This document shows, one piece after another, positions 28,467 through 62,632 of a stretch of 64,000 nucleotides of DNA. The position numbers were made by a program, and so were the translations under genes. The stretch is taken from assembly GCF_000469585.1 (NCBI RefSeq), contig NZ_AWNK01000006.1:184178-248177 (forward strand), written 5' to 3'. Position 1 is the stretch's first letter; each line of letters begins with the position of its first letter. The stretch comes from Chrysiogenes arsenatis DSM 11915. GTDB taxonomy: Bacteria > Chrysiogenota > Chrysiogenetes > Chrysiogenales > Chrysiogenaceae. A model generated the notes under the pieces. The model was given only the letters and a program-made list of their open reading frames with translations. It ran no database searches and was not told where the DNA came from.

Positions 28467-31040
28467 TTACCGCTGCTGAAGTAATTGCATCAACCCCTGT
28501 GGCAACTGATTCGCCTGCGCCAGCATCGCTTGTGCCGCCTGACTGAGCATCTGCATAGAGGTGAACTTTGACATCTCCTCCGCCACATCAGTATCGCGGA
28601 TACGAGCTTCTGACGATTGCAGATTTTCTTCAGCCACACTCAAGCTGTTGATGGTGTGGTCAAGGCGGTTGGCAATCGCACCAAGCTTGGAACGCTCTGC
28701 CGAAACAAGGCTGATCGCCTTATCGATACTGGAAATGGCCGACTGAGCTGCCTCTTGCGACACCACCACGACATTCTCCAACCCTAAAGATTTCACATCC
28801 ACCTGCCCGATACTGGCATTCATCGTCTGCCCTTCGTTCGCGCCGATCTGGAAATCCATCGAACTATCAACCAAATGAATGTACATAGAGGTTGGTACAT
28901 TGGCTGAGGTGAACCGAACTTTTGCCGTAGTCGGATCCCACTCACCATTCACGCCAATGCTCCCTTGGAATTTCACGTCAATCCCTTGGATAACGTTTTC
29001 CATCACCCCATCGCCAACCACATCGCTCCCAATCGGGCTTCCTGTATGAGCATCAAACACACTGACTTGGTACACATTTTCTTGAGCTTTTTGCAGGCGC
29101 TGCAGGTTCAAACCGTCAATGACCCGCTGATCCGCAACCAAGCTGATTTCCCCTTGTACACCATTAAGCAAAGAGCGAATCAATAACGTCCCCTCAACTG
29201 CGGCATGGGTATTGGCAATCGCCGACCCTTTTCCGATAAAGTCAACACTGTGCGCATCGGTAGCAGTACTTCCAAGCGTAATGCCAAGACCAGAGACTTT
29301 TGACGTAATTGCCGTTTGAAATTTGATTTCAAGATCGCTCAGCGTGTCATCGGCTTCAAGGTAGATATCAACCGTCTTCCCATTCCCGTACAGGGTTACA
29401 CGCTGTGAAATATCAAAAGCATTCGTACCATCAGGCGTTGTAAACGTCTCGATATCGATCAATTTTGTGTAGCTTGAAGCGATCCCGCCCACACCACGAA
29501 TCTCCATATTCAAATCATTATCCACCATCGTTCCCGCCTGATTCGACTTGAGCGCCAGGGAGATAGAACCAATGGTTAATGAACCGTTACTTTCGTCCAA
29601 TTGCGCCAGATGATAGGTGATCTCTTTGTCGCCAGCCGTGAGCGCCGTGCTCTGCAATCCACCCGCCGTATACGTTACATAGTAGGCACCGCGAATTTCG
29701 CGTGGCGCACCTGTCGCCCCATCGTCAAAGCGCTCGTCAATCTTGATCGCTCCAGCCCCTATCGACATGGTGTCATTCAACGTCTCACCAGCATCAAGGC
29801 TCAATAACACTTTATCACCAGCCTTGATTTGGCTGCCGCTTCCAAAATAGAGGAGATTTTGACCGGCGATGGCCGTGTCAAAAATAGAGTTCACCGCACC
29901 GGAGCCACCTGTGGTAAGCACTTGCCAGCCGGAAACATCGTTTGCAGCAAGGTGTAAGCCACCGTTGGCGCTCATCGTAGCGTCCGCCCACTGACCCGTT
30001 TCGCCTGTTTTCACGTCAATAAAGCGTATACGTGCCGCTCCGGTAACCGCCCCAGCCGTTCCACCTGATGAATTCACCGCAATATCATGCATAAATTCGA
30101 CTTCTAAATATCCGTGTACGCCCGCCACCACGTTGATCCCTGAGCTCAGCACCAGAGAGTTATCTTGCAATACCGCCGTTTGCGACGAAGCCGTGCCACG
30201 GATACTGAAGCTCGACCCAACCTGTTGGTACATCCCCATCACGCCTGCCATGTCAGTGCCTGACGACCAGACTTCGCCCACCGGAACCCCAGAAATCCCC
30301 ATCGTCGCGCCGCTACTTTGGGCGGCCACGTTAATGCGATACGTCCGCTCGTCAATCGATCCAGAGCGAACCCCCTGCGCATCGATGATGGCGGTAATAC
30401 CCGAAGAATTCACCGCACCATTGGCACCACTGACACCCGCTGCGGTCAAAATATCGCCAGCGAAAGCTCCAGCACGCAACGTCATAATGTCAGACTTGAG
30501 CACCTGATTTGCGCCAACCTTGGTTGTCACATCAAGACGGTAGTTGCCACTGATAACGCGATCGCGGACAATCGCTTCGATTTTATCGCTATCAGAAGTT
30601 GACCAGCGTGCCGTAGCATCGCCATTCAAGAGCTTCTTTGTATTGAATTCGGTAGAAGTTGAGATACGGTCGATCTCATTTTTGAGCTGAAGAACTTCTT
30701 TTTGAATCTCTTCGCGGTCGTTAGAAGTGTACGTTCCGTTTGATGCCTGAACCGCAAGTTCACGCATCCGCTGCAAGATAGCGGTCGTTTCGCTGAGGGC
30801 ACCTTCCGCCGTCTGAATCAGCGAAATACCATCTTGAGCGTTGGAAACCGCGCGGGCAATCCCCCGAATCTGTCCGCGCATTTTTTCCGAAATTGCCAAA
30901 CCAGAAGCATCGTCAGATGCCCGGTTGATGCGCATGCCAGAGGAAAGACGTTCGAGAGATTTTGCCAAACTTCCCTGATTCACGCGGAGCGCGTTCTGGG
31001 AATTCATCGAGGCAATGTTGTTATAAATTGAGAGGGACAT
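28467..31040 (-). CDS. fliC: Flagellin, large form
   Basis: An 857-residue filament subunit; common lengths are 270-550. Residues 1 to about 145 ([40 protein letters not shown]) and the last 95 or so ([20 protein letters not shown] onward, ending in LMQLLQQR) are the conserved D0/D1 helices that bind FliS and TLR5. About 610 residues of variable D2/D3-type sequence lie between, rich in Gly, Ala, Ser, Thr and Asp. AAGGAGG precedes the ATG. A sigma-28 type promoter is upstream. No second flagellin gene is in the window. With pseC nearby, glycosylation of the exposed domain is plausible. Confidence 0.95.
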
Positions 31041-31191: not shown

Positions 31192-32862
31192 TCACACATA
31201 CGCACTCGCCAACTGATTACGGCTGTCGATAATAAATGCACAGAGGTTGCGCTGCACTTCCGCCGCTAATCGCGCCAAGTCGTTGGCCGCAAACGCCACC
31301 TCTTCGGAAACTTTCGCCGATTGCTCCGTTGCCGAAGAGATACACTGAATATCGTCGCTGACTTGATCGGAAGCCTTGTGAATTTCTCCCATAGCATTGG
31401 CATTCTGCGCAATCAGTTGATCAAGTGCCAGAATGCTGTTTAATACAACCTGAAATGAATTATTCGTATCACGCGACAGCGAAACGCCCTGCTGCACCTT
31501 ATTGTTGATAACATCCATAGCTTCAGTAACTTGCGTAACGCCACCCTGAATGGTTTTGACAATATCGATAATCTCCGCTGTCGATTGCGCACTCCGTTCC
31601 GAGAGTTTACGCACTTCGTCAGCAACCACAGCAAAGCCACGCCCAGCGTCGCCCGCTCGCGCAGCTTCAATCGCCGCATTGAGTGCCAAGAGATTGGTTT
31701 GATCGGCGATATCGCTGATAACCCGAATCACCTCTTCCACCCGCTTCGTATTCAACACCAACTGTGCGGTGAACTCAGTCGTTGTAACGACCTGCGTCGC
31801 AATCCCTTCCATCTCTTGCGCCGTCTGAGCCACCTTGCCACCACCATCACGCGCCGCATTCAGCGCTTGAACGGCATTGGTGCGCACGCGCTGATTATTT
31901 TCGCCTAACCCACTCACCGTCTGCGACATTTGCAGCGAAGCCGAAGCAATCTGCGATACGCTTTCAGCCTGTAAATTCATGGTTTGCGACATTTGTGAAG
32001 AAGAACTGCTCAGTTGTTCACTCGCCGACGCCACCCCTTCGGTACTCTGCCGCACACCGACAATAATATGTTGAACCTTTTCGATAAACTGGTTTACATA
32101 CCCCGCCACCTGCGCCAGTTCATCTTTGCCGCTCAGTGGAATACGCTTTGTCAGATCACCATCACCCGTAGCTAAATCGCGTGCCAGTGTTGCAATCGTC
32201 GACGTTGAACTGATGATAGTTTTCAAAATAAGCACCATCGGTACACCTGTCAGGAGCAACAGCACCCCGACAATCAGCGCCATCCGCTTCACTTCCGCCC
32301 ATAACAGAGCATTGATGTCGTCAATATACACTCCCGTCCCAATCACCCAACCCCAAGGCTCAAAACCAATTACATACGAAGCCTTTTCCACTGGACGATT
32401 AAAGCCCGGCTTCGGCCAAAAATAGTTCACCAGCCCCTGACCATCGCGACGTACCACTTCAACCATATCCACAAAAAGTTTCTTCCCGTTCGGGTCAGCA
32501 AAGTTACCGAGATCGGTTCCGTCAAGCTTTGGATTCGTCGGATGCATTACCATACGCGGCTGCATATCGTTGACCCAAATATAGTCGTTATCGCCATATC
32601 GCACAGCGCGCAACGCACGCAGCGCGTGATCTTTTGCCTGTTCCACACTGATTTCGCCCGCCTCTGCCTGCTGCCAATAATTCTGCACGACACTGTGTAA
32701 CGCTTGGGCCATTCCCATTACGGCATCGTTTTTAATCGTGTGCATATTGCGATTCAGCGCACTGAGCGAAACAGCCAGTAAGATAAACGTGCCAACCGCT
32801 GCCATACACATAAAAACCAAAAGCCGCCCTTTGATCATCTGTGGAAAAAATGGTAACTGCAT
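31192..32862 (-). CDS. Methyl-accepting chemotaxis protein with Cache sensor domain
   Basis: A 556-residue chemoreceptor: TM1 at about 12-32, a periplasmic single-Cache domain (about 40-190) with [15 protein letters not shown] and [18 protein letters not shown]2 at about 195-215, HAMP, and the cytoplasmic signalling hairpin with the invariant tip [21 protein letters not shown]. The start at 32862 has GGAG 6 nt before it. The Cache domain closely resembles that of the histidine kinase at 45959. There is no CheR-docking pentapeptide at the end. A sigma-54 type promoter lies about 77 nt upstream. Confidence 0.93.
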
Positions 32863-32938
32863 ACTCTGCTCCTTTTTCGGTAACATGTGAGAGCGTGGTG
32901 ATTGCTGAATGCCGATCACACGACCCTGCACTCTCTAT

Positions 32939-32954
32939 TACAAGGAGCATGCCA
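32939..32954 (-). promoter_or_regulatory. Sigma-54 type promoter of the Cache chemoreceptor
   Basis: On the minus strand TGGCATGCTCCTTGTA. GG and the -12 dinucleotide have exact 10-nt spacing, though the usual -12 GC is GT. The surrounding 26 nt (32930-32955) match the block at 35648-35673 at 25 positions, which supports a functional element. Confidence 0.65.
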
Positions 32955-33087: not shown

Positions 33088-33123
33088 AAAAGCCCCCGTC
33101 AAGCGTACTTGACGAGGGCTTTT
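33088..33123 (-). terminator. Terminator-like hairpin carrying the GTCAA-N6-TTGAC core
   Basis: AAAAGCCC, C, CGTCAAG, CGTA loop, CTTGACG, A, GGGCTTTT. It lies 33 nt after the stop of the chemoreceptor gene at 33157 and reads as a terminator on either strand. Its core CGTCAAGCGTACTTGACG (33097-33114) recurs at 35813-35830 and 36841-36858. Confidence 0.75.
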
Positions 33124-33156
33124 GCGAATGCGAGAATCGCGCGCTTACCGTTCGGA

Positions 33157-34791
33157 TTATCTTCTGGCAACCATTGCAGGCGATGATACCTGAAAGAATG
33201 AGACACTTTGTTGAACATCGGACGCCAGTGCGGCTAGGTCACTTGAGGCACGGGAAACCTCTTCCGAGGAACGCGCAGTCTGTTCTGACGCCGAAGCTAT
33301 CGCTTGAATATCTTCCGTAATCTGATCTGCGGTAACCGACATCTCTTCAACGGAAGCCGCATTCTGTATGATCAACTCTTGCAGCGTTTCCATGCCACCA
33401 ATGATTTCGGCAAAAGCCGCATCAGTTTCCTGCGCTAACACATTCCCATTTTGCGCTTTCGTGTTGACCAAATCCATCGAACTGACCACTTGGTCAACCC
33501 CACCTTGCATACTGACAACAATGGTATTGATTTCGCTGGTCGACTGCGCACTTCGCTCTGCCAGCTTACGCACTTCATCCGCAACCACCGCAAACCCTCG
33601 CCCGGCGTCTCCGGCACGCGCGGCTTCTATCGCCGCATTCAGCGCCAGCAGGTTTGTCTGCTCCGCAATGTCGTCAATCATACGGATGACTTCCTGCACC
33701 CGACCCGCTTTTTCTTCTAGTGAACGGGCATAATTTGACGCTTCCGCCACTTGTTGCGCGATGGAAATCATCTCTTTGGCCGACAATTTTACTTTCTGTC
33801 CCCCTTCGCGCGATAATTCAAGCGCCTCTACCGTGCTCTGCTGAATAGTATTCATATTGCCAGCAATGGCGCTTGATGTTTGCGCCATTTCCGTCGACGC
33901 GGAAGCGATTTGCGAAACCCGCTCGGCCTGTAAACTCATGCCAGAACTCATCTGCACCGAAGCGCTGCTTAACTCTTCGCTCGCAGATGCCACGCCCGTA
34001 GCCGTTTCATGAATTTGCTCCACGGTAGCGCGCAAACTTTCCACCATGCGATTCAACGCTAAGACCAGCAAACCAACCTCGTCGCGCTGTTTCACCGGAA
34101 GTGTCCGCGTCAGATCGCCCTGCGAAACGGCTGTGGCAAAATCTACCGAGTGATTTAATGGCCCGACAATCGTGCGAGTAATAAACCCCGCAATGAGCAC
34201 ACCAACAACAATCGCACCAAGTAACAATCCTATGGTTAACCATAAGTTGCGCTCATAACGACTCTGCGCACTTTCATACTCCACGCGCGCCACATTGAGT
34301 TGCACCTCGATAAGTTCGGCAAATTTATCCGTCAAGGGTTCTACCACTTGATAGAGTTCATCGTTGGCAAATGCCGCCAGTGCGCGCCCATCGCTATCAT
34401 AAAGAATTTTTTTCAATTTTTGGATGCTTGCCTCAGCGCGAGGCATCAAGGGACGGATCTGATCGATCAGCCGTGTTTCTTCTGCCACTAACTCCGTCGC
34501 TAAATAGCCACTCCACAACTTCGCAATCGCCTCTTCCGCATTTTCCACTAACTTTAATGCCGCGGCCATGGAGATATTGGCATTACGTGATTTATGGGTC
34601 GCATCGACAATATTGATCGCATACAGATCAGAAATCTGCTTTAAATCGCGCAGAGGAACAACGCGGTCGTGATACACGGTGTGTAATCCATCCTGACTCT
34701 CTTTCATGCTGGAAAGCCCAATTCCACCAACGACCACTAAAAAAACTACAAACGAAAATACCAAAACCATCTGCCTGTGCACGACTCGCAT
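33157..34791 (-). CDS. Methyl-accepting chemotaxis protein with four-helix-bundle sensor
   Basis: A 544-residue chemoreceptor: TM1 at about 8-28, an all-helical periplasmic domain (about 30-185; [20 protein letters not shown]) of the 4HB_MCP type, TM2 at about 187-207, HAMP, and a signalling domain with [21 protein letters not shown]. The cytoplasmic half is almost the same as that of the receptor at 43913, so these two are recent paralogues with exchanged sensors. It lies 28 nt after the HD-GYP gene and is probably in its operon. GGGGGG precedes the ATG. Confidence 0.93.
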
Positions 34792-34819
34792 AGAACCCCC
34801 CTACCCACATCTTCTCCAC

Positions 34820-35485
34820 TCATACCGCCCATAGGTCACGCGCGGGTGCGTCATCTAACTCACGACGAACCGACCACATATCTTCCTCGCAGTGGTAAAA
34901 TGCTGACACGACTGAAGGGTCAAACTGCCGCCCCATTTCGGCGGCGATAATCGTACGACACTGCGCTGGTTGATACTCATCCTTATAGCAACGTTTACTA
35001 CTGAGCGCATCAAAAACATCCGCTAACGCTACAATTCTGGCTGCAAAGGGTATCGATCCCCCACGAATCCCGTGTGGATAGCCAAGCGAATCATACCGCT
35101 CGTGATGATAAATCACGATATCGCGCGCCATATTAAATGCCTCGTGATCAACAAATTGATCGACCATATTTTCCAGCATATCGGCACCCAGCGTAGTATG
35201 CGTCTGAATTTGACGAAATTCATCCCGACTCAGCTTCCCCGGCTTCGTGAGAATTTCCGGCGAAATAGCGAGCTTCCCGATATCGTGAATGGCGGCAAGT
35301 GGAACAATATAGTTCCGCAACTGCGTGGTAACTTCGGGATGCCCCATCTCCCACAATTGCTCCGTCAGTATTCCGGCGTAATGTTGAACGCGGCGCACAT
35401 GTTCTTGCGTTTCGGTGCAATAGCCAATCGCCAGTGCATTCAATCCATTGCGCTTCGCTTTATTCGTAAACGGTGACGTAACCAT
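34820..35485 (-). CDS. HD-GYP domain cyclic-di-GMP phosphodiesterase
   Basis: A 221-residue protein that is little more than an HD-GYP domain: HVRRVQHYAG, the metal pair in AAIHDIGKLAISPEIL, KPGKLSRDEFRQIQTHT, YHHERYDSLGYPHGI with the GYP motif, and ALADVFDALSS. It should hydrolyse c-di-GMP to GMP. It has no receiver or membrane segment. The start at 35485 has GGAGGGGGG before it; a longer frame upstream is rejected because it runs through the promoter region. It is followed by a chemoreceptor, which suggests that c-di-GMP removal and taxis are expressed together. Confidence 0.9.
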   Translation of the reverse strand: MVTSPFTNKAKRNGLNALAIGYCTETQEHVRRVQHYAGILTEQLWEMGHPEVTTQLRNYIVPLAAIHDIGKLAISPEILTKPGKLSRDEFRQIQTHTTLGADMLENMVDQFVDHEAFNMARDIVIYHHERYDSLGYPHGIRGGSIPFAARIVALADVFDALSSKRCYKDEYQPAQCRTIIAAEMGRQFDPSVVSAFYHCEEDMWSVRRELDDAPARDLWAV

Positions 35486-35656
35486 ACTATCCCCCCTCCG
35501 CCCTCCTAAATGACGATTATACCTTCTGCGTACACGTGTTGACTGCTCTTTGTTCGCTCCCAAAGACACTATACTGAGTGTCGCATCGGCTTGACTGGTT
35601 GCTGTGCACATAAAGCACCTCTCCAAACTGGAAGTAATTCCTATGCGACTCTCTAT

Positions 35657-35672
35657 TACAAGGAGCGTGCCA
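35657..35672 (-). promoter_or_regulatory. Sigma-54 type promoter of the HD-GYP and chemoreceptor operon
   Basis: On the minus strand TGGCACGCTCCTTGTA: an exact TGGCACG-N4-TTG with the -12 C changed to T. It begins an untranslated leader of about 160 nt. It shares 25 of 26 nt with the promoter at 32939. Confidence 0.72.
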
Positions 35673-35727
35673 AACCGTAAACCACTCATTTTTAATACCT
35701 TACGCGAACAAAATGCCTCTCGAACGG

Positions 35728-35749
35728 TTGACCAATGCCAATTGACCAA
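35728..35749. repeat. Two direct TTGACCAA half-sites
   Basis: TTGACCAA occurs at 35728-35735 and again at 35742-35749, 14 nt apart, about 80-105 nt upstream of the expected sigma-54 start site. The half-site is the same as in the neighbouring dyads, so this may be part of an activator-binding region. Confidence 0.45.
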
Positions 35750-35803
35750 AAGCGCATTGCGACATAAGTCGTTTTTTCATAGTCACTTTCATGCGACCAA
35801 CAG

Positions 35804-35833
35804 AAAAAGACCCGTCAACATAGATTGACGGGT
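35804..35833 (-). terminator. Terminator of the kinase-like gene, with GTCAA-N6-TTGAC core
   Basis: On the minus strand ACCCGTCAA, 6-nt loop, TTGACGGGT, then CTTTTTC. It lies 30 nt after the stop at 35863. The core (35813-35830) is the same type as at 33097 and 36841, and it is also about 176 nt upstream of the next sigma-54 start. Confidence 0.8.
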
Positions 35834-35862
35834 GGTATAGTGATCGCATGTGGCACTTCTCT

Positions 35863-36621
35863 TTACGCGGGTTGCTGCATGCAAAAGAGCGGTACTATCA
35901 TTACTAACGAAAGCGTGGCACCGATCGCGTCATACGTATAACTCAATTCCGCACCTTCTATGGCCTGGCGTAGTAAACCGCGCAGGAGCCGTGCGCGGGA
36001 ATCAGATTCATCAATCACAACCGAGTGGGCAAGTATCTCAACCCGTATGGCATCAGGCTGTGATGCTAAGCGAAAGCATAGCATTGGCACCACATCGGGC
36101 TGGCGATCCTTTACCGCAGCCACCATACGGTTCAACCATGCCAAAATGCCCAGTGCGGCATGAAACAGCTTGGCGGAATCGGCAAGCACATAGTTTTTCC
36201 GTGCAAGCAGGGCACACGCCTCATTGTGCGACGCTCTCATGTGCCGCGAAATATTCAGCCGCTCTGCCACCGCAACTGGTTTACCGCAGAGCTCCAGCAC
36301 AATATTATTGTGCCGCAACAGAGCAGCAGAGGCATCAAGCACCATCTCAATAACACTATTCAGGTCAACCGGTTCGGGATCTCTGCCAAGCGCAAAGGTA
36401 TGCTGAATGGTATCAAGACACTGCAAAATTTCCTGAATCCCCTCACTGGCTTTTTTCGGCCATAATCCAGCGGATTCATTTGCCTGAAATGTGTTATCAA
36501 GCGCCAAGGCAACAATATTGGACGGCTGGCGCAATCGTTGCAGCAGCAACGCCATAACGTCGTGTTGGTGGCGTTGCAGCTCTTCAATCGAAAACAACGC
36601 TGTATAATGTGGTGCCAACAT
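35863..36621 (-). CDS. Histidine-kinase-like protein without catalytic boxes
   Basis: A 252-residue soluble protein. The segment VDLNSVIEMVLDASAALLRHNNIVLEL resembles the end of a kinase dimerisation region, and the last 100 residues resemble a decayed ATPase fold. I find no H-box histidine in context, no N-box, and no DxGxG or GxG loops. It could be a kinase-derived adaptor, an anti-kinase or a decaying gene, yet it has GGGAGG 6 nt before its ATG and its own consensus sigma-54 promoter, which favour function. It lies between the sigma-54 activator and HD-GYP genes. Confidence 0.6.
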   Translation of the reverse strand: MLAPHYTALFSIEELQRHQHDVMALLLQRLRQPSNIVALALDNTFQANESAGLWPKKASEGIQEILQCLDTIQHTFALGRDPEPVDLNSVIEMVLDASAALLRHNNIVLELCGKPVAVAERLNISRHMRASHNEACALLARKNYVLADSAKLFHAALGILAWLNRMVAAVKDRQPDVVPMLCFRLASQPDAIRVEILAHSVVIDESDSRARLLRGLLRQAIEGAELSYTYDAIGATLSLVMIVPLFCMQQPA

Positions 36622-36675
36622 GGCATGCCTCCCGTTGCAACGTAGGGGAGTGAGTTCCCGAAACGCGCATCAGAA

Positions 36676-36691
36676 GTGCAAAGAGACTGCC
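36676..36691 (-). promoter_or_regulatory. Sigma-54 promoter of the kinase-like gene
   Basis: On the minus strand TGGCAGTCTCTTTGCA, with GG-N10-GC exact and TTGCA intact. The start site would be near 36665, giving a leader of about 45 nt. Confidence 0.8.
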
Positions 36692-36738
36692 ATCAATGTT
36701 TCTTTGTTTACTAATAGTTACAAAAAGACAAACGTTCA

Positions 36739-36764
36739 TCGGGGTCAACCTATATTGACCCCGA
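36739..36764. promoter_or_regulatory. Perfect 10-bp-arm dyad, candidate activator site
   Basis: TCGGGGTCAA and TTGACCCCGA flank CCTATA. Its centre is about 85 nt upstream of the predicted sigma-54 start near 36665, a usual enhancer position. No T-run follows on the minus strand, so a terminator role is less likely. Confidence 0.6.
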
Positions 36765-36824
36765 CACGAAAAAAACAACATCAGAAATGGTTACTTAACG
36801 ATAAAAAAACGACTTACAACGATA

Positions 36825-36858
36825 ATCAACCATCATTGACCGTCAATCAGCGTTGACG
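36825..36858. promoter_or_regulatory. Two abutting dyads of the GTCAA-N6-TTGAC type
   Basis: ATCAACCATCATTGAC (36825-36840, imperfect) and CGTCAATCAGCGTTGACG (36841-36858, perfect) abut each other and overlap the stop codon of the response regulator gene. They sit 167-185 nt upstream of the sigma-54 start near 36665. Confidence 0.55.
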
Positions 36859-38273
36859 CTCCCATTTCCTTTTTTCAACTTCTGACTGAGCGCCTGTTTC
36901 GATATTCCCAGCAATGAAGCGGCTTTGCTCTGCACACCATCCGTAAGTGTCAACGCTGCGCTGACCGCAAAATCCTCAACCTCCTTCAGGGTGGGAAAAT
37001 ACCCGAAAACGCCGCTTAACACACAGCCATTCCCCGCACCGCCAACCGGCTCACCTTCTAACGACGAGTGCAGCTCGGAATGCTCACGAATATTCGCTGC
37101 CATGTGCACCAGCTCCAGCCGCTCACCACACCGCGCAACAGCATCAAAAACCAACGTCTCTAACTCGCGCACGTTTCCCGGAAAGGCGTAACTGCGCAAA
37201 AACGAAACCAACTCAGGAGCAATCGTTGGCGCGGGGCGTTGATAACTTTCCGCTGTCCGCTCAACAAAATGGTTCAGCAACAGTGGGATATCTTCTGGAC
37301 GGTCACGCAACGGTGGTATAATGACAGAGTGCGTCCGAATCCGGTACAACAAGTCCTTCCGGAAAACCCCTTCCGTCGTCGCTTCAATTAAATCACGATT
37401 GGTTGCCAAAACAACGCGGGCATTGGTCGAACGCAACGAATCAGAACCCACCGGGTAGTAGCGACGATCCTGCAAGAGGCGCAGTAACTTCACCTGACTT
37501 GCCTCGCTCAGCTCTCCGATTTCATCCAGAAAAAGGGTTCCATTTTCGGCTTGTGCAATCAACCCTTCACGCGACCGTTCTGCGCCAGTAAAGGCCCCTT
37601 TCACATGACCAAATAGCGTGTCCGAAAACATCGTGTCATCTAGCCCCGCAATATTGACCGCCACAAACTGACCCGTCCGGCCAGACGCACAGTGCACGGC
37701 TTCCGCAAAAAGCTCTTTGCCCGTTCCGGTCTCCCCGTTAATCAATACTGGTTGAGGCGAACAGGAAATCGCTTCGATATAGCGGAACAACGCGTGCATC
37801 CGGCTACTCTGCGACACGATGCGCGAAAATGCTTTATTATGCTGAACTTGCGAGTTATCCAGCACCATATGCTGCAAAGAGCGCAACTGACCGCGCAAGC
37901 CGCTCACTTCAATCGCCTTCTCCACCGTCGCCAAGAGCCGTTTTTTATCTACCGGCTTGACAAGATAATCGAACGCACCACTCTTCATGCAGCCGAGCGC
38001 CGTATCGACATCATTGACCGCCGTCATCATCACCATAACCGTATCCGGCATCGCTAAACTCAGCTCGCCCAACAGCTCCTGCCCACTCATATGCGGCATG
38101 ATCAGATCAATAATCGCGACCTGCGAACGATGTTTTTGCGCAGCTGCCACTGCCAGTCTCGGATCAGAGACCAGTTGCAGATTGCGAAAACCGGCCGAAT
38201 AGAGCGCTGCTTTCGTAGAAAAAAGACTATCTTCTTCATCGTCAACAACAAGAATCGCAATATCCTGTTCCAT
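36843..38273 (-). CDS. NtrC-family sigma-54 activator response regulator
   Basis: A 476-residue regulator in three parts. The receiver (1-125) has the Asp11-Asp12 pair, phosphoacceptor Asp56 in IIDLIMP, and Lys in YLVKPVD. The AAA+ domain (about 145-370) has Walker A GETGTGKE, the sigma-54-contacting loop GAFTGA, Walker B GTLFLDEIGELS and the arginine finger region. The C-terminal Fis-type helix-turn-helix is near 440-470 (AASLLGISKQALSQKLKK). It should remodel sigma-54 polymerase when phosphorylated by the kinase gene upstream, 42 nt away. GAAGGAGGGG precedes the ATG. Sigma-54 promoters and dyads nearby are its likely targets. Confidence 0.95.
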   Translation of the reverse strand: MEQDIAILVVDDEEDSLFSTKAALYSAGFRNLQLVSDPRLAVAAAQKHRSQVAIIDLIMPHMSGQELLGELSLAMPDTVMVMMTAVNDVDTALGCMKSGAFDYLVKPVDKKRLLATVEKAIEVSGLRGQLRSLQHMVLDNSQVQHNKAFSRIVSQSSRMHALFRYIEAISCSPQPVLINGETGTGKELFAEAVHCASGRTGQFVAVNIAGLDDTMFSDTLFGHVKGAFTGAERSREGLIAQAENGTLFLDEIGELSEASQVKLLRLLQDRRYYPVGSDSLRSTNARVVLATNRDLIEATTEGVFRKDLLYRIRTHSVIIPPLRDRPEDIPLLLNHFVERTAESYQRPAPTIAPELVSFLRSYAFPGNVRELETLVFDAVARCGERLELVHMAANIREHSELHSSLEGEPVGGAGNGCVLSGVFGYFPTLKEVEDFAVSAALTLTDGVQSKAASLLGISKQALSQKLKKGNGSVNAD

Positions 38274-38315: not shown

Positions 38316-40643
38316 CTACTTCCCGACTGGTAAGAGTAAACGGAACGTCGCCCCTGCCCCGACAGTTGACTCAACAACAATACTACCACCATGCTCTTCA
38401 GCGGTCGCACGTGAAATCGACAATCCCAAACCCGTGCCACCGCGTCCACGTTTGGTAGTATAAAACGGCTCGAAGAGGCGCGCCAGTGTTTCGGTGTCAA
38501 TACCGCATCCGTTATCGCGCACTTCGACAGCCAGCATATCGTCACCTTTCAATCGATATGTCGCCACGGTTATTTCCCCGCGCTTTTCGGGAACGGCTTC
38601 CAGCGCATTCATAATGAAATTAATGATGATTTGCTCCAACCGCGCCGCACTTCCGCGCACCGTTGGCAGATTTTCCCCTAACTCGAAACGTAAAGCCACC
38701 GCCCGTTTTTTCGTTTCGCTTGCCAGCATAGACGTTGCACCATGCACCACATCGTTGAGCTGCACCGGCTCGTTGAGGGACATCTTATCTTGCGTCGAAA
38801 AAGCTTTTAAGTGCTCAACAATCCCTTTAATGCGCTCCGTTGCACGATGAATACGCGCCAACATTTCTGGAACCTCATGACGCAATTCGGGGTACGTAAA
38901 ACCACCCGCACTAAAATCCTCCAGCGTCTCCACGTGTTGCGGTAAACTACGGATCATATCGCGCCAGATATCGTCTAACACCGACGTATTGAGCATGATA
39001 AAGCTATTGGGGTTATTGATTTCATGCGCTACTCCAGCGCTTAACTGCCCCAACAGGGATAGGTGCGCCGTGCGCATGGCATCCTGCTGCATCTGCACCC
39101 GCTGTGTGATATTGCGCGATATCGTAATAAACGTGGCAATCTCTTTCTTGGTGTCAAAGCTTCCGGGAGCCGCATTAACTTCCCACGTTGTCGCGCCGAG
39201 GGTAATTATTCCTGTACTTTTGCGCCTTCCTGCTACATAGGCTTCGATAGGACAGGTCTCGCAGGGCTCTGTGCGCCCTTGTAGTATCTCGTAACACCGC
39301 TTTCCGGGAAGCATTGATGCTGGCTGGCGATAAAACTCTGCGGCACCATCATTCGCCCACCGAATCACATATTCACGGTCAACTTCAACAATGGCATCGG
39401 GAATAGCATCCAGTAAAGCGCGGAATTGTTCCGAAAGCTTCTGGTAGCGCACCTGATTCGCGCGCAACGCATTTTCGATCATTTTCACGCGCGTTACATC
39501 CTGTATCGTTCCCATCATCCGTAGCGGCGTTCCCGAGTCGTCAAATTTCACTTCGCCCCGCTCGTGGACATACTTCAACGTACCATCAGCGAGGATAATA
39601 CGGTGATCGATGCTGTAGGGGCGTTTTTCCTCCAGCGCCAGCCGAACACTCTCTTCCACAAAATGACGATCTTCAGGATGAACGTACCCGAGAAACGCTT
39701 CGTAGGTTTCTTCAAATTCACGCGGAATCAGCCCGAAAATACGGTAGACCTCATCCGACCAGTACAGACTTCCGTCCTGAATCAGCCACTCCCAGTTGCC
39801 GATACTGGCAAGCTGTTGTGCCTCCAACAGGCGTGATTTTGTATCGCGAAAGGCCAAAAGCGCGCGAGCCATTCTGCCAAAATCCCCATCGGAATGTTTT
39901 TGCAGCGCTTCAATAGCGGGAAGCTCGGGCAAATGGTTCTTGTCGCGCGAAAGGTCAAACAGTGCATTGGCAATCACGCGCAACTTTTGACTCACGCTCG
40001 CGGTGATAAGCAGCGCCAACATCAGTATAAGAAAGAGTGCAACACCGCCGACTATCATAATTTGCGTTAGGTACTGCCGCGACTCACGTGAAATGCTCTC
40101 GATACGCACACTCGCGCGCTCCACAAAAAGCTGGCTGATACGGTGCGGATAGAGGGTGAAATTCGCAAAGTGCTGCCCTGCCGCATCAAGATAGTGGTGC
40201 GACATCGTGTAATCGACCGCGGCAATGTCAGTCGCTTGCAGCACAAAACGGCGGTATTCGTGAAACTCATGCACCAACGCGGCCGCACTCGACTCGTCAA
40301 TTTCCTGAAGTAAATCAGAGTGAGCGAGGTGCGCCACACGTTCACCAAATTGATTCAGCTCTTCGACAAACTCAGCATGCAGGAAATAGAGTTGCAACTC
40401 AGAGAGCGCTCTCTCTTCCGCCTTTTCCAGCGTTGCCACCACACGCATATGCAGCAAACTCATCCCTTCGCTGAACTTGGCCGCATCGCGAATAACTTGT
40501 AAATCATTATGCTGCAATGCAGAAGCGGACTGCTGCCGTTCATCTACGGTGCGAATGGACCAATACCCCAACGCCAATGTCAGCAGAATGACAAAAAGAG
40601 CTGGCAACAAAAAGAGTAATATCAGGTTGCGGCTAGCGCTCAT
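38316..40643 (-). CDS. Membrane PAS-PAS histidine kinase with novel N-terminal sensor
   Basis: A 775-residue kinase: TM1 at about 8-30, an all-helical periplasmic region (about 35-190), TM2 at about 195-217, a linker, PAS (about 285-395, with PAC), a second PAS (about 410-525) with a CETCPI cysteine pair, HisKA with LGQLSAGVAHEINNPN, and HATPase with NFIMNALEAV, RDNGCGI and GGTGLGLSI. The periplasmic domain and linker closely resemble residues 1-285 of the GGDEF-EAL protein. The start is ATG in the overlap with that gene (ATGA). It is the evident partner of the sigma-54 activator downstream. Confidence 0.93.
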   Translation of the reverse strand: MSASRNLILLFLLPALFVILLTLALGYWSIRTVDERQQSASALQHNDLQVIRDAAKFSEGMSLLHMRVVATLEKAEERALSELQLYFLHAEFVEELNQFGERVAHLAHSDLLQEIDESSAAALVHEFHEYRRFVLQATDIAAVDYTMSHHYLDAAGQHFANFTLYPHRISQLFVERASVRIESISRESRQYLTQIMIVGGVALFLILMLALLITASVSQKLRVIANALFDLSRDKNHLPELPAIEALQKHSDGDFGRMARALLAFRDTKSRLLEAQQLASIGNWEWLIQDGSLYWSDEVYRIFGLIPREFEETYEAFLGYVHPEDRHFVEESVRLALEEKRPYSIDHRIILADGTLKYVHERGEVKFDDSGTPLRMMGTIQDVTRVKMIENALRANQVRYQKLSEQFRALLDAIPDAIVEVDREYVIRWANDGAAEFYRQPASMLPGKRCYEILQGRTEPCETCPIEAYVAGRRKSTGIITLGATTWEVNAAPGSFDTKKEIATFITISRNITQRVQMQQDAMRTAHLSLLGQLSAGVAHEINNPNSFIMLNTSVLDDIWRDMIRSLPQHVETLEDFSAGGFTYPELRHEVPEMLARIHRATERIKGIVEHLKAFSTQDKMSLNEPVQLNDVVHGATSMLASETKKRAVALRFELGENLPTVRGSAARLEQIIINFIMNALEAVPEKRGEITVATYRLKGDDMLAVEVRDNGCGIDTETLARLFEPFYTTKRGRGGTGLGLSISRATAEEHGGSIVVESTVGAGATFRLLLPVGK

Positions 40644-42808
40644 GACGCCCCCAAGCGGGCAGAGTTTCGCAACCGTTGGGTGAACTCTTGCGCCGGAATC
40701 GGACGGCAGAAAAAGTACCCCTGAAATGCGCGGCACCCTTGCGACATCAGAAATTCCACCTGTGCCGCCGTCTCAACCCCTTCGGCAACCACCTCTAAAT
40801 TCAGGGCATGACTCATAGCAATGATGGTTTTGACAATCGCCGCATCTTCAGGGTTATCGTGAATATCGCGCACAAATGACTGATCAATTTTCATCTGATC
40901 GAGCGGCAGCCGCTTCAGATATTGCAGCGACGAATACCCCGTACCAAAGTCATCCATCGAAAACGTAATCCCGCTCCGCTTGATCTCCTGCATTTTGGCA
41001 ATCGTCTCTTCGACGCGCTCCAACACCGCGCTTTCGGTGAGCTCCAGCTTCAAGCGGTCGGCGCGAGCCCCGGTTTCATGTACTATCCGCCCGATATGTT
41101 TCACCAGCGCCGGATCTTTAAACTGCCGTGCACTCATATTGACTGCCAGCGTGAGGTGCGCTGACTCTGGCCGTTGCTGCCACGCTACCAATTGCTGACA
41201 CGCTGTTTCCAACACCCAATACCCGATCGGAACAATCAAGCCCGTCTCTTCGGCCAGTGGAATAAAATCAGCGGGCGACACCACACCTCGCACGGGATGA
41301 TGCCAGCGTAGCAATGCTTCGGCACCAAAAGGACGACCTTCGCCATCCACCTGAAGTTGGAACACCAAACGGAATTCCTTCTTTTCCAACGCTTGCTGCA
41401 AATCGTGTTCCAGCGACGTGCGATACTCCAGTGTGGCCTGAAGGGCGGGATCGTAAAAACGGATGGTATTGCGACCGGCATTTTTCGCCTGATACATGGC
41501 GGCATCGGCACATTTAAACAGCTCTTCCGCATCGTGCGTACCATCCTGAAACAGCGCAACACCAATACTCGGCGTCACGCGGTACCCCTCGCCGTCAATC
41601 ACATACGGCACACTTAACGACAGTCGCACCTGTTCTGCAAACAACTCTACTCGGTGTACCGCTTGGGCGCGATTCACTCCCAGAGTATCGAGCAGCAAAG
41701 CAAACTCGTCACCACCAAAACGTCCCATCGTCAACATTCCTTCAGCAACGGCCAACGTACGTAAACGAGCGGTAACTTCTTGTAAAAGTTTATCGCCAAT
41801 ACTATGCCCACGGGTATCGTTCACCGTTTTGAAATTATCGAGATCCAAATAGAGCAAAGCGCCATAATGGCCGGAACTGGTGCAGAATTGCAGAGCGTGG
41901 TTGATGTATTCACTCAATAAATGGCGATTCGGCAACCCCGTCAGCGTATCGTAGTGCGCCAGATAATGCGCTTGCTGCTCCGCTTCACGCCGCCGCACTT
42001 CGGCATCGCGAAGTGCCAGCAGAGCCTGCGCCACCTGCCGTACTTCACCCTTCGCTTGTTGCGCCAGAGCGTCGACTTCAGGGAGCGGTGGAAATTTTCC
42101 ATCGGACAGAGCAAGATCACTCAGCGCGTCGGTAATAACACGCAAATTGCGACCAATGAGTCGACCCGAAAAAAGTGCCGACAAAACCATGAACACTAAA
42201 CTGAGCCCGCCAGCCCAAGCGACCCAGGAAAAATAGTCGTACAGCATTTCCATGGCTTTTGCATGGCGAATGTCCGCTCTGGCGGACAAGAGTTCTGTAA
42301 TGCGGTGGGCATAGCTAGAAAAATTGATAAAGTGTTTCTGTGCCGCATCAATGTAATTTTCCGCCGTGGAAGGGTCGATAGCGGCAATATCCGTCGCCAT
42401 AATCACAAAATACTGATACCGCTGAAATTCCTGCAACAGCGCCACGGTGCTGCCATGATTTACTTCGCGTAACAGTTCTGACGCGGCAAGCGCTTCGGCT
42501 TCGAGCAAACGAGCTGACAACATATCAACAATTGTCCCATGACGGTAATACAGCTCAATTTCCGAACTTGCCCCTCGGCGGGCAAGTTCGAGTGTGGCAG
42601 TTATGTGCTTATGTAAATCCCCCACACTACGACTGAACTGTGCCGCAGCGTGAATGGTCTGTAAATCGCGCGCTTGCGACGCACTGACGTCAACATAGTG
42701 CCCTTTCAAAGTCGAAAACGACCAATACCCGAAGGCAAACGCCAGCATGACGACCAACATCGCCGGAAAAAGAAACGCGAACAAAAGGTTTCTGCTGGTC
42801 GCTTTCAT
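40640..42808 (-). CDS. Membrane GGDEF-EAL protein with novel N-terminal sensor
   Basis: A 722-residue c-di-GMP enzyme: TM1 at 8-28, helical periplasmic region (30-190), TM2 at about 193-215, a linker, GGDEF domain (about 283-450, motif RFGGDEF intact at 363-369) and EAL domain (about 465-715, with EAL at 497-499 and DDFGTGYSSL). Both active sites look complete; the RxxD inhibitory site before GGDEF is absent. The sensor shares ATDIAAID, YIDAAQKHF and YAHRITEL blocks with the kinase encoded next. It starts 3 nt after the phosphatase stop and overlaps the kinase start. Confidence 0.94.
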   Translation of the reverse strand: MKATSRNLLFAFLFPAMLVVMLAFAFGYWSFSTLKGHYVDVSASQARDLQTIHAAAQFSRSVGDLHKHITATLELARRGASSEIELYYRHGTIVDMLSARLLEAEALAASELLREVNHGSTVALLQEFQRYQYFVIMATDIAAIDPSTAENYIDAAQKHFINFSSYAHRITELLSARADIRHAKAMEMLYDYFSWVAWAGGLSLVFMVLSALFSGRLIGRNLRVITDALSDLALSDGKFPPLPEVDALAQQAKGEVRQVAQALLALRDAEVRRREAEQQAHYLAHYDTLTGLPNRHLLSEYINHALQFCTSSGHYGALLYLDLDNFKTVNDTRGHSIGDKLLQEVTARLRTLAVAEGMLTMGRFGGDEFALLLDTLGVNRAQAVHRVELFAEQVRLSLSVPYVIDGEGYRVTPSIGVALFQDGTHDAEELFKCADAAMYQAKNAGRNTIRFYDPALQATLEYRTSLEHDLQQALEKKEFRLVFQLQVDGEGRPFGAEALLRWHHPVRGVVSPADFIPLAEETGLIVPIGYWVLETACQQLVAWQQRPESAHLTLAVNMSARQFKDPALVKHIGRIVHETGARADRLKLELTESAVLERVEETIAKMQEIKRSGITFSMDDFGTGYSSLQYLKRLPLDQMKIDQSFVRDIHDNPEDAAIVKTIIAMSHALNLEVVAEGVETAAQVEFLMSQGCRAFQGYFFCRPIPAQEFTQRLRNSARLGAS

Positions 42809-61462: not shown

Positions 61463-62632
61463 TTAGGCAAGATAGACTATCTCATCAGGAATGGCGGTAA
61501 TTTTCACACCACCTTTTTCGGTCACAATAAACGTGTTTTCAATGCCGATTGCGCCCCGTCCGGGTAAAACAAATTTTGGCTCAACGGCCACCACCTGATT
61601 TGCCCGCAGTGGAACTTTAAACCCTTGTGCCAAAACAGGTAACTCATCAAGTTCAAGTCCAACGCCATGCGCAACAAATTTCGCTTGCTCGCCGGGCATT
61701 CCCATAAAACTCTCACCGAGCCCCTCTTGATTTGCCATAGCGAGTGCTTCACTAAAGAGATCCTCGCAAATATTCCCCGGTATCAGCAGTTCTTGAATCC
61801 GTTTTTGTATTGCCAATGAGACGTCAAAAGCGCGCTTCAGCTCGGCATCAAGCGTGCCGATAACAAACATGCGTGTCATATCCGTAATGTAGCCGTTGAA
61901 AACACCCGTGTAGTCGATGAAAATCGGCTCATTAGCTTGAATCAAAGCAACTCCCGACCCATGCGGTGCGGCACTGGTTAAACCGCGCCCGGTAACCGCA
62001 CCATCAAAAAAACCTTCGCACGCCGCTCCCGCCGAGAGTGCTAATCCCATGAATAATTCCTGATTAAAAGCACGCATGCGGATATACCCTTCATTACCCG
62101 CCTTTCTCAGGCGATACTCAAATTCTGCGGCGACATCAACTTCGCGCATACCCGCCTTCAGAAACTGCGGAACCTGCTCAAATACGGAACAAAGCGACTT
62201 CGCACTCTGTGTTAGTAATTGCAGCTCGAACGGTGTCTTTTCGGAGCGAATATCTCGATAGGGGAGGGAGATATCGCAGAACTCTTTTCCCGGAAGCAAT
62301 TTGGAATAATACGCTTGTTGCTGCACTGGCAAGATGTCGTAGGAAAGTCCTATACGCATCACGCTTTCAGGAAAAGTTGCGGCAAATTCCTTACTCGGCG
62401 GAAACGGGCGGATATCCTCCAGTGGACTCTCTTGACAAGCACGCGTGTAACTTTTTTTGACGAGCAGGATCGGAACGCCTTCGGCAGGAACCCACAACAC
62501 TCCATTTTGCCGTGTGCCAGAGAAATAATAGATATCAATAGGAAGCTGAAAAAGCGCCCCGTCAATCTTTTGACCCTGTAGCGCAGACTGCAATTTTGCC
62601 ACGCGCACCATCGCTTCAGTACGTGTAATCAT
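61463..62632 (-). CDS. M24 family metallopeptidase (Xaa-Pro aminopeptidase-like)
   Basis: A 389-residue cytoplasmic protein with a creatinase-type N-terminal domain and a pita-bread C-terminal domain. Metal ligands are all visible: Asp in IDYTGVF, Asp in TDMTRMF, His in FVAHGVGLE, Glu in VEPKFV and Glu in IENTFIV. It may remove N-terminal residues from X-Pro peptides, or be a related hydrolase. It overlaps the nitroreductase stop as ATGA. Why it sits in an acid-oxidation cluster is unclear. Confidence 0.9.
   Translation of the reverse strand: MITRTEAMVRVAKLQSALQGQKIDGALFQLPIDIYYFSGTRQNGVLWVPAEGVPILLVKKSYTRACQESPLEDIRPFPPSKEFAATFPESVMRIGLSYDILPVQQQAYYSKLLPGKEFCDISLPYRDIRSEKTPFELQLLTQSAKSLCSVFEQVPQFLKAGMREVDVAAEFEYRLRKAGNEGYIRMRAFNQELFMGLALSAGAACEGFFDGAVTGRGLTSAAPHGSGVALIQANEPIFIDYTGVFNGYITDMTRMFVIGTLDAELKRAFDVSLAIQKRIQELLIPGNICEDLFSEALAMANQEGLGESFMGMPGEQAKFVAHGVGLELDELPVLAQGFKVPLRANQVVAVEPKFVLPGRGAIGIENTFIVTEKGGVKITAIPDEIVYLA

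Follow-up and report, generated by a model that had tools for sequence, protein, structure and literature searches.

Four copies of the inverted repeat GTCAA-N6-TTGAC, all within 3.8 kb of a 64,000-nucleotide stretch of Chrysiogenes arsenatis DNA (hereafter the window), are very probably upstream activator (enhancer) sites. Judged from sequence comparisons, they would be bound by the NtrC-family response regulator encoded at 36843–38273, which is predicted to drive three adjacent sigma-54 promoters from them. This agrees with the main proposal of a first-pass annotation of the window, which had read the dyads as possible binding sites of an NtrC-like regulator. The proposal is supported by the rarity of the dyad in the genome, its placement in a sister genome, and the sigma-54-like promoters that accompany it in three phyla.

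The regulator and its neighbouring genes

The proposed dyad-binding protein carries a receiver domain (PF00072, E 4.7e-22) in which D56 and K106 are conserved in the alignment, a sigma-54 interaction AAA+ domain with the GAFTGA motif (PF00158, E 1.9e-55; present as KGAFTGAE), and a Fis-type HTH (HTH_8; PF02954, E 5.3e-8) with the recognition helix LGISKQAL. Beside it lies the gene for a partner histidine kinase (38316–40736), which contains PAS domains and an N-terminal portion of approximately 290 amino acids without assignment. The proposed targets comprise a 252-amino-acid protein (35863–36621), for which a Pfam search returned no match, an HD-GYP-type protein (34820–35749 as the open reading frame is listed, with the real start probably at an ATG near 35484), an MCP encoded in the same unit as the HD-GYP gene (33157–34791), and a further MCP with an sCache_2 domain (31192–32931 as listed, with the real start probably at an ATG near 32861). 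Every gene of this module, including those for the regulator and kinase, is on the minus strand, and sigma-54 itself is encoded in the genome (PF04552, E 5.4e-55). A flagellin gene is located beyond the MCP gene at 31192–32931; this flagellin (28467–31040) is 857 amino acids long, and that at the same place in the sister genome is 343.

Distribution of the dyad

The exact dyads are GTCAAGCGTACTTGAC (33098–33113), GTCAACATAGATTGAC (35814–35829), GTCAACCTATATTGAC (36744–36759) and GTCAATCAGCGTTGAC (36842–36857), none of which is assigned to a strand. The last of these straddles the regulator's stop codon and forms a tandem, with a period of 17 bp, with the degenerate copy ATCAACCATCATTGAC (36825–36840; one mismatch). 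The first-pass annotation had listed the same four perfect copies, in ranges that add at least one paired base on each side of the exact 16-mers, along with this degenerate copy and a constant six-base spacer; each of these observations was recovered, and the module holds dyads with a spacer of six only.

By chance, 0.06 copies of GTCAA-N6-TTGAC are expected per 64-kb window, and none of 100 shuffled sequences reached four. If any five-base arm and any spacer are permitted, 10 out of 60 Markov sequences, each 64 kb long, contain at least four copies of their commonest dyad, and therefore the raw count in the window is not decisive on its own. Instead, the reality of the dyad is settled by its clustering within 3.8 kb, its rarity genome-wide and its recurrence beside orthologues. 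The entire C. arsenatis genome (2,825,161 bases in 22 contigs) contains seven exact dyads, compared with two matches to a reversed control pattern. Four of these seven reside in the regulator module and the other three are all within open reading frames. When one mismatch is allowed, 85 sites are found versus 70 for the control pattern, which is mostly noise, so only the exact dyad is informative. A matrix trained exclusively on other genomes ranks the four window sites 1st, 2nd, 3rd and 6th in the window, although this ranking is partly built in because the training set consisted of exact dyads.

Spacing between dyads and sigma-54-like promoters

One sigma-54-like element precedes each of the three transcription units of the module, as judged with a matrix written from consensus frequencies. 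All three are on the minus strand. The element before the sCache_2 MCP gene, TGGCATGCTCCTTGTA (32939–32954), and that before the HD-GYP and second MCP genes, TGGCACGCTCCTTGTA (35657–35672), have nearly identical cores: they share TGGCAYGCTCCTTGTAATAGAGAG and both carry GT, rather than GC, at -12. The third, TGGCAGTCTCTTTGCA (36677–36692), precedes the gene for the 252-amino-acid protein. Dyad centres fall at about -178 relative to the predicted start for the MCP gene (distal dyad 33098–33113), about -176 for the HD-GYP unit (distal dyad 35814–35829), and about -86 and -184 for the 252-amino-acid protein gene (proximal dyad 36744–36759 and distal dyad 36842–36857), reproducing the distances reported at first pass. 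The MCP and HD-GYP units lack an intact proximal dyad, and the half-site or degenerate dyad found there instead is weak evidence for one. For example, ACCAATGCCAATTGAC (35731–35746), with two mismatches, may be a weak candidate for the proximal site of the HD-GYP promoter.

This spacing recurs elsewhere. A correctly oriented sigma-54-like promoter lies 40–170 bp ahead of 25 of 41 distinct dyads from three phyla, compared with 1.1% of random positions in the same loci, although these dyads were collected around the regulators and their dyads and thus are no random sample. Proximal dyad centres cluster at -82 to -88 from the starts of the sigma-54-like promoters.

We envision that the kinase would phosphorylate the regulator, whose dimers would bind GTCAA-N6-TTGAC through the Fis-type HTH and oligomerise between distal and proximal dyads. 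DNA looping would then bring the regulator to the sigma-54 RNA polymerase to open the promoters of the MCP gene, of the HD-GYP gene plus the second MCP gene, and of the gene for the 252-amino-acid protein. The predicted effect of the regulator is activation, not repression.

The module in a sister genome

In a sister genome, taken to be that of Desulfurispirillum indicum S5, all four dyads present genome-wide are located within 2 kb just downstream of the orthologous regulator gene. The two regulators are 63–64% identical and the gene order of the module is shared. When the promoter regions of both species, five in all, are aligned, the distal dyads match in position, as do the -24/-12 elements.

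The sister module (locus L038) differs in several respects. It includes a gene for a single-domain response regulator between the kinase and activator genes (L038:8529–8909) and a CheW-like gene between the HD-GYP and MCP genes (L038:15368–15892), both of which are absent from the module in the window. At the place of the 252-amino-acid protein, the sister genome encodes a protein of 404 amino acids that is only 27% identical over 101 amino acids. The kinases (38316–40736 and L038:6107–8542) are 49% identical over 514 amino acids, and their sensor parts at the N-terminus show no alignment: the sister sensor is SBP_bac_3, and that of the window kinase has no assignment. Because these sensor parts are unlike, the input signals of the two kinases may differ.

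Dyads beside homologous regulators in other phyla

Dyads also follow homologous regulator genes in Deferribacterota, where they precede genes for an aldehyde dehydrogenase and a class-III (4-aminobutyrate-type) aminotransferase that are next to a branched-chain-type ABC transporter. In Desulfobacterota, the dyad is found after the regulator gene, no more than 160 bp from the helix codons, and the open reading frames behind it fit a branched-chain/amino-acid-type ABC transporter by their sizes and order only. Nine new regulator homologues came from 192 genomes belonging to the class of Desulfocicer, which were searched separately and at a later stage. In six of these, from Desulfobacterota genomes and with the helix LLGISKQAL, the regulator gene is immediately followed by a tandem pair of dyads spaced 19 bp from each other, and another with SKQAL (L160) has one dyad; neither the remaining SKQAL homologue (L161) nor the one with LLGVSQQAL is accompanied by a dyad.

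Among 101 homologous regulators, a dyad is present within 2.5 kb for 10 of the 12 with the LGISKQAL helix and for 5 of the 89 with other helices (Fisher test p 9e-9, a guide only because the rows are related and not independent). Of the 14 sigma-54 activators encoded in the C. arsenatis genome, 12 have a readable C-terminus; LGISKQAL is present in that of the window only, and intergenic dyads occur only beside this same regulator. No exact dyad was found near the SKQAL regulators L039, L040 and L161. Dyads are likewise mostly absent beside Nitrospirota and Geobacter homologues with SRQAL or TRQAL helices, and therefore the site cannot be assigned to the helix family as a whole.

Five Deferribacterota loci (L058–L062) that are not beside the closest regulators carry dyads at -86 to -88 of strong sigma-54-like promoters, with a second copy at -158 in L061. 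Open reading frames next to the dyads in L058, L059 and L060 include one of approximately 412 amino acids and a small one of 133–151 amino acids. These dyads are probably sites of a paralogous regulator with an SRQAL or SRQAM helix.

When the DNA-binding domain is left out of the tree, the dyad label requires 5 changes, versus 13 with shuffled labels. The Chrysiogenota regulator pair falls outside the main dyad-bearing clade, which indicates that the pairing of helix and dyad is either old and often lost, or arose more than once. A single orthology for all dyad-bearing regulators is not borne out by this tree.

Terminator stems and other binding proteins as alternatives

The first-pass annotation had noted that two of the dyads form terminator stems and offered, as its second reading, a terminator family with a common core. 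If the dyads were primarily intrinsic-terminator stems, their nearness to sigma-54-like promoters would result simply from sharing short intergenic gaps. The best case for this is the dyad at 35814–35829, the terminator stem of the gene for the 252-amino-acid protein, whose stem is followed by CTTTTT and makes a good intrinsic terminator. The dyad at 33098–33113 lies at the core of a very strong hairpin that follows the second MCP gene (-30.8 kcal/mol, z -6.4), but the terminator scan did not call it, as its run of T residues forms part of the stem. Thus, of the two stems, the former stands as a terminator, and the latter as a strong hairpin. A GC-rich stem plus T run is therefore evident at 35814, arguable at 33098 and absent at 36744, where a stable hairpin has no T run behind it, and at 36842, where the fold is not notable and also lacks a T run. 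Indeed, this last copy and three of the four sister copies fold no better than about 1–2 sd beyond shuffled sequences, and the capacity to form a hairpin is not conserved. Across genomes, the GTCAA/TTGAC arms are constant and the spacer is always six bases long, whereas its letters vary freely, as protein recognition predicts. An exact-pattern search can only return constant arms, but looser searches of the regions next to the regulators (with any arm, or with GTCA/TGAC and any spacer) revealed no competing family and no hairpins with compensating arm changes. The refuting condition that the annotation had set, examined here in part by a genome-wide dyad scan, likewise gave no spread over gene ends, since exact copies are confined to the module and the interiors of open reading frames; distances to promoters are also narrow. 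Given the hairpin tests and the fixed arms, we reject a terminator family as the main reading and regard it as very improbable. Recognition by a protein is the best explanation for the common core, and use as a terminator would be a local addition. Two window sites double as hairpin or terminator, probably because lengthening the dyad with GC-rich sequence is enough for both roles where the gap between genes is short.

Protein recognition could also involve a repressor or a different activator rather than the adjacent NtrC-like regulator. GTCA-type arms do serve other regulators, such as FleQ with its shorter spacer (PMC6120874), and a PpsR site has the form TGTcaN8tgACA (PMC2654016). However, the dyads are tied to the regulator gene in three phyla, frequently no more than 160 bp from the codons of its helix, even though the neighbouring targets differ. 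Furthermore, rather than overlapping the sigma-54-like promoters, they are placed upstream of them at distances classic for activators. We consequently give the involvement of another protein very little credence, and favour the adjacent regulator as the protein that binds the dyads.

Relation to known systems

The arrangement itself is of the standard sigma-54 enhancer type. As with NtrC-type upstream activator sites, an inverted repeat occurs in one to three copies about 80–185 bp ahead of a -24/-12 promoter, and genes for a kinase and response regulator pair lie next to it. The module departs from these systems in its own site sequence and in its targets, which are chemotaxis receptors, an HD-GYP protein and a protein of unknown family.

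Sites of the FleQ/FlrA type resemble those described here in their GTCA/TGAC arms, their use by a sigma-54 activator and their link to motility genes. Known examples are GTCaNTAAAtTGAC for FleQ of P. aeruginosa (PMC6120874) and yGTCA-N6-TGACr for Desulfovibrio DVU2894 (PMC4641369). However, FleQ/FlrA-type sites read GTCA-N6-TGAC and span 14 bp, whereas all four sites in the module read GTCA-N8-TGAC and span 16 bp. A FleQ-type site is thus ruled out by spacing, and the module contains none. The window regulator also differs from FleQ/FlrA in its receiver domain and SKQAL helix. The only GTCAA form with FleQ spacing in the window, GTCAATCTTTTGAC, is far from the module at 62561–62574. When open-access full texts were searched for the 16-bp form, only the PpsR site came up, and no regulator of the kind encoded in the window.

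Neither the pairing of site and helix nor the switch of target genes from one phylum to another appears to have been described in open-access full texts. A more speculative reading, which we consider possible but somewhat improbable, is that three phyla have retained the pairing of LGISKQAL with GTCAA-N6-TTGAC but exchanged the target genes. In Desulfobacterota these would be an amino-acid-type ABC transporter; in Deferribacterota, a 4-aminobutyrate-type aminotransferase and aldehyde dehydrogenase together with a transporter of that type; and in Chrysiogenota, the chemotaxis receptors and the HD-GYP protein. Under the same reading, because two sites in Chrysiogenes are also terminators, incoming transcription could tune activator binding.

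These findings provide a testable DNA code for a widespread subfamily of sigma-54 activators that is undescribed in the texts searched, and they name probable target genes in little-studied phyla. A site and recognition helix that stay constant while the controlled genes change would offer a clean system for the study of regulon turnover.
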